Assembly: GCA_036511855.1 (NCBI GenBank)
Contig: DATCBN010000025.1
Location: 1 to 35,436, forward strand
Length of the DNA: 35,436 nucleotides
Reading direction: 5' to 3'
From: Candidatus Eremiobacteraceae bacterium
Lineage (GTDB): Bacteria; Vulcanimicrobiota; Vulcanimicrobiia; Eremiobacterales; Eremiobacteraceae
The notes beneath the pieces were generated by a model. That model did not search any database. It was not told where the DNA came from and was given only the letters and a program-made list of their open reading frames with translations. The position numbers and the translations under genes are program-made. Shown here one piece after another: positions 7,225 through 33,615 of the stretch (its first letter is position 1; each line of letters opens with the position of its first letter).

Positions 7225-7285
7225 TGTACTAGGGCAAGCAGCGCTTGCCCCGGCTTTTTGGGCGAGCGATGCTCGCCCTACTACA
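7225..7285. repeat. Pair of oppositely oriented REP-like palindromes
   Basis: Two 19-base palindromes, 7232-7250 (centre AGC) and 7260-7278 (centre GAT), each have eight-base arms of the type GGGCRAGC/GCTYGCCC. The first is preceded by GTACTA and the second followed by CTACTAC, so they face each other. They lie between the EF-G-like gene and the aminopeptidase gene, both on the minus strand. The same element recurs at four other loci in this window. Confidence 0.85.
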
Positions 7286-17188: not shown

Positions 17189-17260
17189 AATCGTACAGGG
17201 TAAGCATCGCTCGCCCATTTGTAGGAGGGCAATCGTACTAGGGCAAGCATCGCTTGCCCC
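17189..17260. repeat. Two REP-like palindromes in direct orientation
   Basis: 17198-17216 is an imperfect copy (GGGTAAGC/GCTCGCCC) and 17241-17259 a perfect one (GGGCAAGC/GCTTGCCC), both with centre ATC. Each is preceded by GCAATCGTAC, and a stray GTAGGAGGGC at 17221-17230 marks a partial unit. The pair lies between the ABC operon and the end of the membrane protein gene on the same strand. T6 at 17271 is 11 bases past the second palindrome. Confidence 0.85.
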
Positions 17261-19020: not shown

Positions 19021-19105
19021 GTCGGGGCCAAGATCGCTTGGCCGACAATGAAGGTCGGCCCCTGCAATAAGATGGGGCAAGCGTTGCTTGCCCTAGTACG
19101 GATGC
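19021..19105. repeat. Composite palindrome cluster upstream of exbD
   Basis: Three stems occur in series: GTCGG.GGCCAAG/CTTGGCC.GAC around 19021-19046, GGCCGAC/GTCGGCC at 19040-19060, and GGGCAAGC/GCTTGCCC at 19075-19093 (centre GTT) followed by TAGTAC. The first two share arms, so alternative pairings are possible. The second matches the last hairpin of the element at 22838-23109, and the third is the 19-base element seen elsewhere. They lie between exbD and the ndh gene end, both minus strand. Confidence 0.8.
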
Positions 19106-19116
19106 CCTGATCCCTC

Positions 19117-20382
19117 CTACAGACGCGGGTCGGCGGGCATCGAGAGCTTGACCGTATCGCGCGAGAAGAGAAGGTCGAGCGTCCAATCGATGGCGACGCG
19201 CAGTTTGCGCTCGAGGGTGGGGATGCGCGTGAGATAGTAGGTGCGCCACAGCCACCATGCTGGGAACCCCGAGATTTTGAATCCGCCGACCATCGCGACC
19301 GCGCTTCTTTCGCCGAGGTTTGCCATCTGGCCGATCATCGTGAACGCGAACGGCTTGAGCGGTTTTCCGTCAGCCAACGCCACCATGTTGTTCGCGACGT
19401 GCGTGCCTTCGCGCAGCGCATGCTGCGCCGTCGGCGGATATGGCTTCGCGCCTGGTGCCGGCAAGACTTGGGCACAGTCGCCGATCGCCCAAACGCCGGG
19501 ATGACCGGGAACGGCCAAGTTGGCGTCCACGGGCACGCGCCCGCGCTCGTTTGTGATCCCCAGCGCGGCGATGAGCGGATTGGGCCCGACGCCGCCGGCC
19601 CAGATGAACGTCCGGGTCAGAATGCGCGTGCCGTCGCTCAAGTCGATGCCTTCCGCGTCGGCGGCGCGCACTTTCGCGTTCATAAGGACCTCCATGCCGC
19701 GCTTGACCAGCGTGCTCGCGGTGAAGGTCGCGAGCTGCTCGCTGAGCTCGGGCAGAACGCGCGATTGAGCGTCCAATAACACAGTGCGGATGTCCGCGGC
19801 TGTGAAATTGCTGTATTGCCTAGAAGCGCGACGCACGAACACGTCGAGTTCGGCGGCGGTTTCGACGCCGGCGAAGCCCGCGCCGGCGACGACAAAGGTC
19901 AGCAACTGGCGGCGCTGATCTGCGTCTTCCTCGAGTTCGGCTCGTTCGAGCATATCGAGTGCATGGTTGCGGATGCGGATCGCGTCTGTGAGTGTTTTGA
20001 CCGGCAGCGAGAATTCCGCGACTCCGGGCAGGCCGAAGTAGTTGGACACGCCGCCGACGGCGATCAGCAATTGATCGAATCCCAACTGGTGGCGATGGCC
20101 TTGCTCGTGGCTGAACGACACCGTGCGGGTGGCGAGGTCGACAGTGTCGATCTCCGCCTCGAGAAGCTTGATCCGCGGGCAGATGCGTCTGATGTTTTGC
20201 ACGATATGCCGTGTGTCGATGGAACTGGTGGCGGCTTGCGGCAGCATCGGCGTGAATAGGAAGTAATTTTCGCGGCTGACGAGCGTGACTTGGATATCCT
20301 TGTGCCGGCCGGCCAGTGCCTGCAGGCGAAGCGCGGCGTAGACCCCGCCGAATCCGCCGCCGAGTATGAGCATCCGATTCAT
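19117..20382 (-). CDS. ndh: Type II NADH:quinone oxidoreductase (Ndh-2)
   Basis: The 421-residue flavoprotein passes electrons from NADH to quinone without pumping protons. The FAD-binding Rossmann motif LILGGGFGGVYAAL is at the N-terminus, the NADH-binding motif VVAGAGFAGVETAAEL in the middle, and the FAD-binding GVWAIGDCAQV near residue 300. GTHVANN and a C-terminal amphipathic stretch (ISGFPAWWLWRTYYL) fit peripheral membrane attachment. ATG 20382 was chosen by homology to family N-termini; a frame to 20589 runs over the divergent gene. The divergent neighbour starts at 20432, leaving about 50 bases for both promoters. Confidence 0.94.
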   Translation of the reverse strand: MNRMLILGGGFGGVYAALRLQALAGRHKDIQVTLVSRENYFLFTPMLPQAATSSIDTRHIVQNIRRICPRIKLLEAEIDTVDLATRTVSFSHEQGHRHQLGFDQLLIAVGGVSNYFGLPGVAEFSLPVKTLTDAIRIRNHALDMLERAELEEDADQRRQLLTFVVAGAGFAGVETAAELDVFVRRASRQYSNFTAADIRTVLLDAQSRVLPELSEQLATFTASTLVKRGMEVLMNAKVRAADAEGIDLSDGTRILTRTFIWAGGVGPNPLIAALGITNERGRVPVDANLAVPGHPGVWAIGDCAQVLPAPGAKPYPPTAQHALREGTHVANNMVALADGKPLKPFAFTMIGQMANLGERSAVAMVGGFKISGFPAWWLWRTYYLTRIPTLERKLRVAIDWTLDLLFSRDTVKLSMPADPRL

Positions 20383-20431
20383 GGCCGCTGCTCCGAGCAG
20401 GCGACGCGCTCCGGCCGCCCAATCCCTTTCT

Positions 20432-22813
20432 ATGCCACAACGCACGAAAATTGCTGCCGCAATCGTCATCGGCTTTGCTACTTTGGTCTTCGCGCTCGCC
20501 GGCGCCGAACGACTTCGCGCGGCCGACGGTACGATGCTGCCGAACGGTTGGACGATCACACCGGCCGGAGAGCTGACGCCGCTCGGCACCTTGCCCCTGC
20601 GTGTCGTCGAAGATCCGTCGGGCCGATGGCTCGCGGTGTCAAACGCCGGCTACGGTGCCCAATCGGTGACGATCGTCGACGAGCGAACCGGCGTCGTGGC
20701 TGCGAGCGCACCCATCGCCAAGTCGTTTTATGGACTTGCGTTCGCATCGGACGGAAAGACGCTCTATGCATCCACCGCCGCCGATGGAGGCATCAGACGA
20801 TTCGCCTTCGACGCGAATACCGGCGCGTTGCACGATCTCGGCGCATGGACGATCGGCTCGGGATCGCAGTGGATAGCGGGCCTCGCGGTTTCGGCCGATG
20901 GACGAGTGGTATACGCTGCATCAACTGCCACCGATGAGCTCATGGCGTTGGACTCTTCGAGCGGCTCAAAGCTCTGGGCCGCAAAAATAGGCACCCAACC
21001 ATACGCAGTCGCGTTGTCAAGGACCGGCACCAACGCGTATGTGAGCGATTGGACCGGCTCTTCGGTTGACGTCGTGGATGCTGCGTCGGGCGCAAATATC
21101 GCTCACATCCAAGTCGGGGCGCATCCGAACGCATTGCTCGCCTCTCCGGACGGTGCAACATTGTACGTCGTGTGCGCGAACGATAACACCGTCTATGCGA
21201 TCGACACGAAAACGAATTCGGTGCGCGCGCATTTCGATGTCGCGCTGTCTCCAAATTCGCCTGAGGGCTCGACGCCGGACGGCCTCGCACTTTCCACTGA
21301 TGGGAAGACACTATTCGTCGCCGACGCCGGCAACAACACAGTGGTGGCCTTAGACCTCGCGAGCGGCGAGGTGAACGGGGCGGTGCCGGTTGGATGGTAC
21401 CCCACCGATATCCTGATCACGCACGATGGTGCCCGACTGGTTGCGCTCGACGGTCACGGCACGCAAGTCCATTCCAATCCGCTGTATCGTCACCCCGATG
21501 CGCGGCCGAAATCCAAACAAGGTGCGAATCCCGACGAATATTACGTCGCGGAGTTGGCCACCGGGGATCTGGAACGACTCGCGATGCCGGATCAGAAAAC
21601 GCTCGCCTCAGGATTGATCGTCGCGCGCGGCAACGTTCCACGCATCACAAACACTATCGACTGTTACAGCGTAGACTACAGCCTGAACTGCTCCCCGTTT
21701 GACCACGGTCGCATTTCTCCAGCGCCAACGCACGTCATCTACGTCATCAAAGAGAACCGGACGTATGACGAAGTGCTCGGCGATGACCCACGGGGCAACG
21801 GCGAGCGCGATCTCGCTATCTTCGGGAAGAGAATAACCCCTAATATTCATAGCCTCGCCGACAGCTTCGTCCTTCTCGACGATTTCGATGTGGATGCCGA
21901 AGTGTCGGCCGACGGCCACAATTGGTCGACGGCCGCGTACTCGACCGACTACGTCGATAAGCTTTGGCCGTCAACGTACTCGCACCGCAGGCAAGATTAC
22001 GATTACGAAGGCAGCGCAGCGTCGCGACCGTCGGCGGGGTACATCTGGGATGCCGCGATCGCAAAGGGCTTAAGCGTGCGCGACTACGGCGAGTATACCG
22101 ATTTTTCAACGAAGGCGGGCGATCTGGAAAAGCCTGTGGTCTCATCGTTGGTGGGCCGCATCGACCAGCATTACCGCGGCTTCGACCTGCAGGTCACGGA
22201 TCAGTCGCGAACGGATGAATGGCTCCGCGAATTCAAAGAATTTGTCAAAAACGGGCAACTGCCGGCGTTCGAAATCGTCCGTCTGCCCAACGACCATACT
22301 TCGGCCACACGTCCGGGCATGCCGACGCCGTACGCGATGGTGGCCGACAACGACCTCGCGCTCGGCCGGATGATCGACGCACTGAGCCATAGTAAGTATT
22401 GGAAAAACACCGTCGTGTTCGTGCTTGAGGACGACGCCCAGGCCGGCCCGGATCACGTCAGCGATCACCGCACTGAAGCGCTCGTGATCGGTGCGCAGGT
22501 TAAGCGCGGATTCGTCGACCACACACACTACACCACCTCCGGCATGATCCGGACCATCGAAGGCATCCTCGGTCTCGAACACATGAGCCAGTTCGACGCA
22601 AATGCGCGCTTGATGGATTTGGACTTCGCGGCAATCGCAAACACGGCGCCATGGTCGGCGATCCGCGAGACGGTCGACCTCAAGGCCGTTAATCCACCGG
22701 ATGCTTCGGGAGCGAAGGCCTCGATGCGACTAGACCTGAGCGGCGCCGACCGCGCAAATGAAGCGGCGTTCAATCGCATACTTATGGATTGGGCGAAGTC
22801 GCAGACGCACTAG
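20432..22813 (+). CDS. YncE-type beta-propeller fused to phosphoesterase (alkaline phosphatase superfamily)
   Basis: The 793-residue protein starts with a signal peptide (MPQRTKIAAAIVIGFATLVF, cleavage near RAADG). Residues 45-400 hold YVTN/YncE propeller repeats such as AFASDGKTLYAS and ASPDGATLYVV. From about 430 there is a PF04185-like phosphoesterase domain with VIYVIKENRTYDEVLGD, LPNDHTS near 620 and EDDAQAGPDHVSDHRTE near 667, which supply metal ligands and the nucleophile region. Such fusions are annotated as bifunctional YncE/alkaline phosphatase family proteins. It is secreted or periplasmic and may release phosphate from lipids or polymers; the substrate is unknown. ATG 20432 lies in the short gap before ndh. 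Confidence 0.9.
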   Translation: MPQRTKIAAAIVIGFATLVFALAGAERLRAADGTMLPNGWTITPAGELTPLGTLPLRVVEDPSGRWLAVSNAGYGAQSVTIVDERTGVVAASAPIAKSFYGLAFASDGKTLYASTAADGGIRRFAFDANTGALHDLGAWTIGSGSQWIAGLAVSADGRVVYAASTATDELMALDSSSGSKLWAAKIGTQPYAVALSRTGTNAYVSDWTGSSVDVVDAASGANIAHIQVGAHPNALLASPDGATLYVVCANDNTVYAIDTKTNSVRAHFDVALSPNSPEGSTPDGLALSTDGKTLFVADAGNNTVVALDLASGEVNGAVPVGWYPTDILITHDGARLVALDGHGTQVHSNPLYRHPDARPKSKQGANPDEYYVAELATGDLERLAMPDQKTLASGLIVARGNVPRITNTIDCYSVDYSLNCSPFDHGRISPAPTHVIYVIKENRTYDEVLGDDPRGNGERDLAIFGKRITPNIHSLADSFVLLDDFDVDAEVSADGHNWSTAAYSTDYVDKLWPSTYSHRRQDYDYEGSAASRPSAGYIWDAAIAKGLSVRDYGEYTDFSTKAGDLEKPVVSSLVGRIDQHYRGFDLQVTDQSRTDEWLREFKEFVKNGQLPAFEIVRLPNDHTSATRPGMPTPYAMVADNDLALGRMIDALSHSKYWKNTVVFVLEDDAQAGPDHVSDHRTEALVIGAQVKRGFVDHTHYTTSGMIRTIEGILGLEHMSQFDANARLMDLDFAAIANTAPWSAIRETVDLKAVNPPDASGAKASMRLDLSGADRANEAAFNRILMDWAKSQTH

Positions 22814-22837: not shown

Positions 22838-22962
22838 GTAGGGCCGAGGTTTATCCTCGGCCTCGGCGAGCTTTAGCTCGCCAGTTAATAGGTCGGCTGG
22901 GCAAGCGATGCTTGCCCTTCTACAAAAAAGTCCTGGCCGACCATAAAGGTCGGCCCCACAGA
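22838..22962. repeat. Four-hairpin modular element, copy A
   Basis: A 125-base unit carries four consecutive perfect stems: 22843-22861 (GCCGAGG/CCTCGGC), 22865-22882 (GGCGAGC/GCTCGCC, loop TTTA), 22899-22917 (GGGCAAGC/GCTTGCCC, centre GAT) and 22935-22955 (GGCCGACC/GGTCGGCC, loop ATAAA). It starts GTAGGGCCGAGG and ends CCCACAGA. It lies between the convergent phosphoesterase and MBL-cupin genes. A second near-identical copy follows 148 bases later. Confidence 0.9.
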
Positions 22963-22985
22963 AATGAGCGGCGCCGACCTGAAAT

Positions 22986-23109
22986 GTAGGGCCGAGGTTT
23001 ATCCTCGGCTTCGGCGAGCTTTAGCTCGCCGGTTAATAGGCCGGCTGGGCAAGCGATGCTTGCCCTCCTACAATAAATCCTGGCCGACCATAAAAGTCGG
23101 CCACACAGA
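22986..23109. repeat. Four-hairpin modular element, copy B
   Basis: This 124-base copy repeats the element at 22838-22962 with the same order of stems and only a handful of substitutions plus one length change in the A-rich spacer. The four stems are again present, with the last shortened by a mismatch (AAAAGTCGGCC). The two copies fill nearly all of the 306-base gap between 22814 and 23119, which holds no gene. A 23-base spacer (22963-22985) separates the copies. Confidence 0.9.
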
Positions 23110-23119
23110 CATATTTGAC

Positions 23120-24181
23120 TTAAAGCTCGCCGTCGAAGTAGTCCAGGTGGGGTGACGCGCGCACGCGCAGACGGCGGCCGCTGATGCTCACTTTGTCCGA
23201 ATCCGGGTAGTGACACACGTCCTCCACCTCGTCCATGCCGAGCAGAAACACTTTGCATGGCGTGTCGCTGCCGTTGAGGAGTTGGTGCGCGCCGGTGTCG
23301 CCGACGGGAAACGCGATCACATCGCCCGGCCGGCACTCAAATGTTCCGCGCGGAGTGCGGATGGTCGGCCGGCCTTCCCAAACCAAGAACATCTCTTCTT
23401 CGAGTTGATGCGAGTGAAGCGGACAGAATTTCTTGCCCGGCGCCAGTTCGACCATCCAATAGCCGAGCTTGCGTGCGCCGATCGGGTTCCCGATCTCGTA
23501 CAGGGTTGCTTCGTATCCGCCGGGATCCACTTCGTACTGCGCGGCGATCTCATCGATGTTGATGCGGTTGACGTACGCGTCGGTCCGCGATTGCAGGCAT
23601 TCGCCGATAATGCGGTCGGCGTCGGCGAACAAGCACGCGCCGTCGCCGACGAGAAGGACGTCCAGTCGCAGCGCCCACAATTTGCGAAGCGACATCACCG
23701 CGGCGCGAGGGTCCAGCAGTTTGTCGTCGTCGAGCAGGCGCAGGCTTCCCGCCGGATCTCCCCACAATGCGTCGCCGACAATGGCCGCGTTAAGTTTCGG
23801 CAATGACAGCGCGATCTCGCCGGGGCTTTTCATGCCGTCAAACGCGATGACGCGGGCGCCTGCGAACGGCTCGTCGCCGTCATTTAACACGCGGTCGACG
23901 GGGCCGGTGAGCAGCGGCGCGTCGCCTTTGCTCGCGGCGATCTTCGCGCCGAATTGCGCTGCTACTTCGCGCGCCATCCGCTCGTGATCGCGATTCGTGA
24001 CGATCACCCAGGCCGCGCCGCCGCGTTCGGCTAGTTCTGCGGACTGCTCGGGGAGCAGCGCGAGGGGATCGACGACGACATTGCCGCCCGGTATCGTCAA
24101 GAAATACGAGTTGAAGAACACGCGTCTTGCCGGTTGCCAGACCGACCACATGAAGACGCCCGGGATCACGGTGGGCTGCAT
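23120..24181 (-). CDS. Metallo-beta-lactamase-like domain (degenerate) fused to cupin
   Basis: The 353-residue protein has an MBL-fold N-terminal region (1-215) and a cupin from about 225. The usual HxHxDH metal motif reads TNRDHER, the next ligand motif SPGEIALS lacks His, VGDALWGD keeps Asp, and the last motif is GDG instead of GHG, so the binuclear zinc site is probably lost. The cupin keeps PLHSHQLEEEMFLVWEG with His256, His258 and a Glu, and PGDVIAFPVGDTGAHQL, so it can bind a metal. The start overlaps the upstream response regulator by 16 bases. It may act as a ligand sensor or enzyme for that two-component system; function unassigned. Confidence 0.8.
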   Translation of the reverse strand: MQPTVIPGVFMWSVWQPARRVFFNSYFLTIPGGNVVVDPLALLPEQSAELAERGGAAWVIVTNRDHERMAREVAAQFGAKIAASKGDAPLLTGPVDRVLNDGDEPFAGARVIAFDGMKSPGEIALSLPKLNAAIVGDALWGDPAGSLRLLDDDKLLDPRAAVMSLRKLWALRLDVLLVGDGACLFADADRIIGECLQSRTDAYVNRINIDEIAAQYEVDPGGYEATLYEIGNPIGARKLGYWMVELAPGKKFCPLHSHQLEEEMFLVWEGRPTIRTPRGTFECRPGDVIAFPVGDTGAHQLLNGSDTPCKVFLLGMDEVEDVCHYPDSDKVSISGRRLRVRASPHLDYFDGEL

Positions 24182-33503: not shown

Positions 33504-33535
33504 GGGGCAAGCATCGCTTGCCCCTTTGATTTTTT
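33504..33535 (+). terminator. Intrinsic terminator after small zinc-knuckle gene
   Basis: The first palindrome of the block (nine-base GC-rich arms GGGGCAAGC/GCTTGCCCC, three-base loop) is followed on the plus strand by TTTGATTTTTT. This is a typical rho-independent terminator placed 30 bases after the stop of the 58-residue protein gene. Confidence 0.7.
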
Positions 33536-33615
33536 CGCCGTACTAGGGCAACTGTACTAGGGCGAGCATCGCTCGCCCAAAAAACGGGGCAAGCGATGCT
33601 TGCCCTCCTACGTAG

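Follow-up and report, generated by a model that had tools for sequence, protein, structure and literature searches.

The two consecutive groups of hairpins at positions 22838-23109 of the window, i.e. of the whole 35,436-nt stretch of DNA that was analyzed, very probably constitute a hybrid, tandemly duplicated bacterial interspersed mosaic element (BIME), in which an inverted pair of family-II REPs, i.e. short palindromic repeats associated with transposases, carries a family-I REP in its linker. This conclusion is drawn from the presence of two REP families and of REP-associated tyrosine transposases (RAYTs), together with the near absence of the corresponding intergenic gap in two related genera. 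The hairpin set is not a new RNA family; it is a known kind of repeat in an unusual bacterium.

The first-pass annotation had described two copies of about 125 nt, offset by 148 nt, and both were recovered at 22838-22962 and 22986-23109, with 94% identity over the whole unit. The left part (92 nt) is 95% identical at an offset of 148, the right part (41 nt) 88% identical at an offset of 147. Both copies contain the same four stems in the order A-B-C-D. Hairpin A is a plus-strand family-II REP. In copy 1 (22838-22862, stem 22842-22862) it reads GTAG followed by GGCCGAGG-TTTAT-CCTCGGCC with an 8-bp stem, and in copy 2 (22986-23010, stem 22991-23009) it has a 7-bp stem and the loop TTTAT. Hairpin B (22865-22882 and 23012-23031) is a minor hairpin that lacks a GTAG tag; it reads GGCGAGC-TTTA-GCTCGCC in copy 1 and has the same loop TTTA in copy 2. 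Hairpin C is a family-I REP on the minus strand with an 8-bp stem in both copies. It reads GTAGAA followed by GGGCAAGC-ATC-GCTTGCCC in copy 1 (22899-22923, stem 22899-22917) and has the tag GTAGGA in copy 2 (23047-23071, stem 23047-23065). Hairpin D, also on the minus strand and with 8-bp stems, is again a family-II REP, which reads GTGG followed by GGCCGACC-TTTAT-GGTCGGCC in copy 1 (22935-22959, stem 22935-22955) and has a decayed tag, GTGT, in copy 2 (23081-23106, stem 23081-23103). The 23-nt spacer between the copies (22963-22985) contains GAGCGGCGCCGACCTGAAAT and resembles sequence that flanks family-II copies at other loci, such as GCGGCGCCGACATGAAATGTGG in L012.

The fixed order of stems was thus as annotated, but the number of kinds was not: A and D are one element on opposite strands, so that there are three kinds of hairpin and not four. 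Likewise, the loops of A, B and D are AT-rich as had been stated (for D, ATAAA in copy 1 and CATAAAA in copy 2 on the plus strand), but that of C, GAT, is not. The order within a copy is II(+), B, I(-), II(-), and that of the REPs across both copies is II+ I- II- II+ I- II-, i.e. the alternating orientation of a BIME combined with a 148-nt tandem repeat. The 272-nt stretch has a folding energy of -84.9 kcal/mol, compared to -44.8 +/- 3.3 for shuffled sequences (z = -12). Hairpins A and D, inverted with their tags outward, are 79% complementary over 28 nt, and the predicted fold mostly keeps the hairpins separate. In its left half, CGGCGAGCTTTA, hairpin B shares 12 identical nt with the 3' terminus of the right flanking gene, read on the gene's own strand; the match sites in the window are 22864-22875, 23012-23023 and 23121-23132. 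This may be coincidence, or B may have been made from the end of the gene.

With 27 perfect stems of 8 bp or more, the window exceeds all of 10 first-order shuffles, which have 5-17 (mean 9.5); the excess is due to the REP families I and II. Repeats were counted in a 427-kb sample of the source genome, a draft assembly of 3.07 Mb (112 contigs, 96% complete), and by genome-wide pattern searches, with shuffled sequence as the control for the sample and reversed patterns as the genome-wide control. Among perfect stems of 8 bp or more, those seen most often in the sample were GGGCAAGC (89 occurrences), GGGTGAGC (17), GGGCGAGC (10) and GGCCGACC (6); no stem occurred more than three times in the shuffled control. 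Searches with the stems thus yielded the further copies that the first-pass annotation had proposed to look for. The family-I hairpin, GGGCAAGC-3 nt-GCTTGCCC, has 430 exact stems in the genome, and the reversed pattern has none. Its stem variants, GGGCAAGC, GGGTGAGC and GGGCGAGC, change on both arms. In 108 of 113 sampled copies, the trinucleotide GTA occupies -6 to -4 on a single side; the opposite side is unconserved. Two sister species have 58 and 66 family-I copies, the other genomes searched 0-2. The near identity of the 430 stems suggests a recent spread.

Within the window, single family-I stems had been reported at four further loci, and seven hairpins are indeed present there: two at 7226-7278 (a GTACTA-tagged REP at 7226-7250 and a second stem at 7260-7278), one on the plus strand with a GTACTA tag at 17235-17259, one at 19075-19099, and a cluster of three at 33504-33605, one of them with a GTAC tag (33554-33578). 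The REP at 19075-19099 has a GTACTA tag and lies on the minus strand beside a single family-II REP (19040-19060), which had also been noted before and is real, albeit imperfect and likewise on the minus strand. In the 427-kb sample, family-I copies are often singlets or same-strand arrays, not doublets. A tandem single-REP array of seven family-I REPs in the same orientation, mostly with a 42-nt period, is located at 124410-124770 of contig C4.

Family II is defined by GTAG or GTGG followed by GGCCGANN-TTTAT-NNTCGGCC and has 38 exact copies genome-wide (control 0), nearly all preceded by CTGTGG, CTGTAG or TGTAGG. Its variants also change on both arms: GGCCGACC, GGCCGATG, GGCCGAGG and, in the sister species G001, GGCGGACC. 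The family-II-like stem of G001 differs from family II by a paired change; G001 has 155 stems of the GGCGGACC type, and all 38 stems of the source genome have GGCCGA. A search with the 125-nt unit retrieved 86 places in the genome, with full-length matches only at the two copies in the window. The complete A-B-C-D order was found nowhere else in the genome; other loci have sub-combinations. The C-D pair (unit positions 61-125) recurs at about 10 other loci, compact inverted family-II pairs that lack an insert are present at e.g. L012, L014, L019 and L180, and B-like hairpins directly follow family-II copies at C99:9974-10012 and in L013. The composite module was not found in 30 related genomes. 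A chimera of a family-II hairpin and a family-I 3' arm, TGTAGG-GGCCGACTTTTATGGTCGGCC-CCGCTTGCCC, is present at about eight places, which shows that shuffling between REP families is real. The earlier description as mobile or shuffled cassettes was a fair one. Loci with this chimeric repeat (GTAGG, family-II hairpin and CCGCTTGCCC) include L106, L114, L117, L175, L177, L184 and L186.

RAYTs (TnpA-REP) are single-strand HUH/Tyr nucleases. The search for a RAYT-like Y1 transposase, also proposed in the first-pass annotation, revealed two Y1_Tnp genes in the source genome, on contigs C109 and C4, both located between inverted family-I REPs. The C109 protein scores 95.5 bits with the NCBIfam model REP_Tyr_transpos (cut-off 80); a PDB search with this protein gave no match. 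The C4 protein is shortened by a frameshift and is below the cut-off. The frameshift in its gene (L032:1426-1812) is located before the catalytic-Tyr region and may be a draft-assembly error. The HUH motif (PDHVH) and the Tyr region are present in the RAYTs at L031 and L145 and lost in frame at L032; one family-I RAYT of the source genome has a frame open through both motifs. A RAYT flanked by family-II REPs was not found in the source genome (two Y1_Tnp genes only in a draft that is 96% complete). Family II may be orphaned there, or its RAYT may be encoded in the missing part of the draft. The RAYT of G001 (contig C59; 94.6 bits) matches the solved TnpA-REP structure 4ER8 (E = 5e-4) and is flanked by hairpins of the type GTAG/GTGG-GGCGGACC-TTTAT-GGTCCGCC, of which at least eight, family-II-like and in tandem, lie upstream and three, inverted, downstream. 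Among named genomes, the RAYT search yielded distant relatives only, with 25-44% identity (cyanobacteria, Planctomycetota, Verrucomicrobiota, and others). Most other RAYTs of the bacterial family with enough flanking sequence carry their own tagged inverted hairpins; the RAYTs at L137, L139-L145, L148, L149 and L152 are each flanked by hairpins of their own stem sequence. Inner support of the RAYT tree is weak, and the tree does not prove REP-RAYT co-evolution.

The module is located between two convergent genes, encoding a protein with a beta-propeller and a phosphoesterase domain (20366-22813, plus strand) and a protein with a metallo-beta-lactamase fold (Lactamase_B_5) and a cupin domain (23120-24181, minus strand). 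The gap of 306 nt is nearly all REP. In two genomes of the same family, the orthologous convergent genes lack the hairpins and overlap (G004) or are separated by 9 nt (G005); because both genomes belong to other genera, this comparison does not represent a recent insertion polymorphism. Same-genus genomes yielded no full-length homologue of the gene on the right. In the 427-kb sample, 101 of 133 REPs lie outside predicted ORFs (crude calls, covering 90% of the sample), with 54 in convergent, 44 in tandem and 3 in divergent gaps. The preference for convergent and tandem over divergent gaps holds for both families, and other REPs are reported to show it as well (PMC3733652).

A non-autonomous repeat spread by a REP-type transposase had been one of the options considered earlier. 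It is strongly supported by the hundreds of copies, the one-sided tetranucleotide tag, the RAYT genes with HUH and Tyr motifs between inverted copies of the same hairpins, and the near-zero gap in relatives. The family-II REP A and the inverted family-II REP D, with their tags outward, would form a REP doublet (HH dimer or REPIN type), the linker of which would hold hairpin B and the inverted family-I REP C; the whole A-B-C-D unit would then have been duplicated in tandem. Spreading most likely resembled that of other REPs, in that tag and hairpin would be recognized on single-stranded DNA, cleaved and joined by the RAYT. The biochemistry of TnpA-REP (PMC8266576) is the ground on which we infer that RAYT action moved these copies. 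The 148-nt duplication itself would have arisen by RAYT strand transfer or by recombination or slippage between repeats.

A special case of this scenario is that the duplication was due to ordinary slippage or recombination and that the REPs are decayed, immobile remnants. The lack of a family-II RAYT in the source genome, the frameshift in one of the family-I RAYTs, and the decayed tag and stem of copy 2 are compatible with it, but the reading frame of the other family-I RAYT runs uninterrupted through the HUH and Tyr motifs, and the 430 near-identical stems suggest recent spread. We regard it as unlikely, while giving it appreciable weight.

Two readings that differ in kind had also been proposed, a bidirectional terminator and a processed structured RNA; neither is needed to explain the module or has specific support here. 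A bidirectional intrinsic terminator or mRNA 3'-end stabilizer would fit the location between convergent 3' ends, as well as the minus strand's two terminator-like sites (0.6 expected), and known REPs can stabilize mRNA or aid termination (PMC3733652, PMC2817692). However, the plus strand has no terminator-like site, the same hairpins are present in hundreds of copies, most lacking a strong downstream T-run, and the hairpins are lacking from the orthologous pairs of G004 and G005. It is therefore very unlikely that termination explains what the module is, even though a secondary role as a terminator or stabilizer may exist. A discrete processed RNA, representing a new non-coding RNA family, could account for the strong folding and the perfect stems. 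But independent REP hairpins, which occur singly across the genome and in either orientation, account for the fold, no Rfam family matched at the gathering threshold, and the composite was not found in the 30 related genomes. Such an RNA is extremely improbable. A tRNA/tmRNA scan found none.

For the hybrid BIME, the closest known systems are the hybrid BIMEs of Stenotrophomonas maltophilia, in which REPs of two RAYTs are present in one cluster (Nunvar et al. 2010, PMC2817692). They share the alternating orientation, the tandem repetition of the basic unit and the intergenic location, whereas the REP sequences and the host lineage differ, and for the second family of the module no cognate RAYT was detected in the source genome. 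Heterodimers of different REP families (PMC3733652) and tandem REPIN arrays (PMC3116915) have also been described, so that the earlier statement that no family of this composition is known holds for the letters, but not for the kind of element (PMC2817692, PMC3733652, PMC3116915). REPINs and HH dimers of GTAG REPs (PMC3116915, PMC3733652) are likewise inverted pairs with tags outward that occur in tandem arrays and, like the REPs here, mostly in convergent or unidirectional gaps. In contrast to them, the linker of the module contains a REP of another family, and the sampled family-I copies often stand alone or in same-strand arrays. The general features of GTAG-type REPs, i.e. a high-copy short palindrome (20-50 nt), a one-sided tag and an extragenic location, are all found here; the tag is GTGG or GTAG in family II and GTAG in hairpin C, whereas it is mostly GTAC in family I genome-wide. 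The arrangement of a REPtron, a RAYT between inverted copies of the same REP, is present on C109 and C4 (family I) and on C59 of G001 (family-II-like), but not for family II inside the source genome. Family I resembles the group 3 REP of S. maltophilia in its 8-bp perfect stem and 3-nt loop, and the TTTA loop and the two bases between tag and palindrome of the Marinomonas group 3 REP are similar to elements here (PMC8266576). However, group 3 REPtrons use GTAG and family I mostly GTAC, and the residue equivalent to Q95 of E. coli is H or K in the RAYTs here, not Q.

The tag GTACTA is present on about 249 of the 430 family-I copies, and in most copies GTAC stands in place of GTAG/GTGG. The family-I copies of the sister species have almost only GTAG (GTAC in 2 of 87 among the copies listed), and GTAG or GTGG is present in all of the 66 described REP families that were collected in PMC6006769. 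Around the C4 RAYT (L032 1292-1993) the REPs are GTAC copies, around the C109 RAYT mainly GTAG copies. At the position matching Q95 of E. coli, a tag-contacting residue (PMC6006769, PMC8266576), the C4 RAYT has K and the C109 RAYT has H; in the other aligned RAYTs of the bacterial family it is Q in 10 of 11 and M in one. For Marinomonas, a change of GTAG to GTAC made by hand moved cleavage in vitro to GA/GT (PMC8266576). No clear signal of a conserved GT/GA cleavage dinucleotide was found 3' of the GTAC copies. A tentative scenario, plausible rather than probable, is that a RAYT was duplicated in this lineage and that one paralogue came to use GTAC in place of GTAG as its guide tag, along with an altered residue at the Q95 site; the GTAC-tagged REP would then have multiplied to about 249 copies. 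Because there are only two RAYTs, one of them frameshifted, the guide switch is a lead and not proof.

If true, it would represent a naturally occurring switch, in a REP-RAYT system, of both the guide and the site of cleavage. The GTAC majority and the differing RAYT residues provide natural material for testing whether the tag guides the choice of cleavage site. The RAYT set of this bacterial family is good material for a study of REP-RAYT co-evolution. A known process accounts for a striking module, and a little-studied lineage contributes two further REP families with RAYTs.
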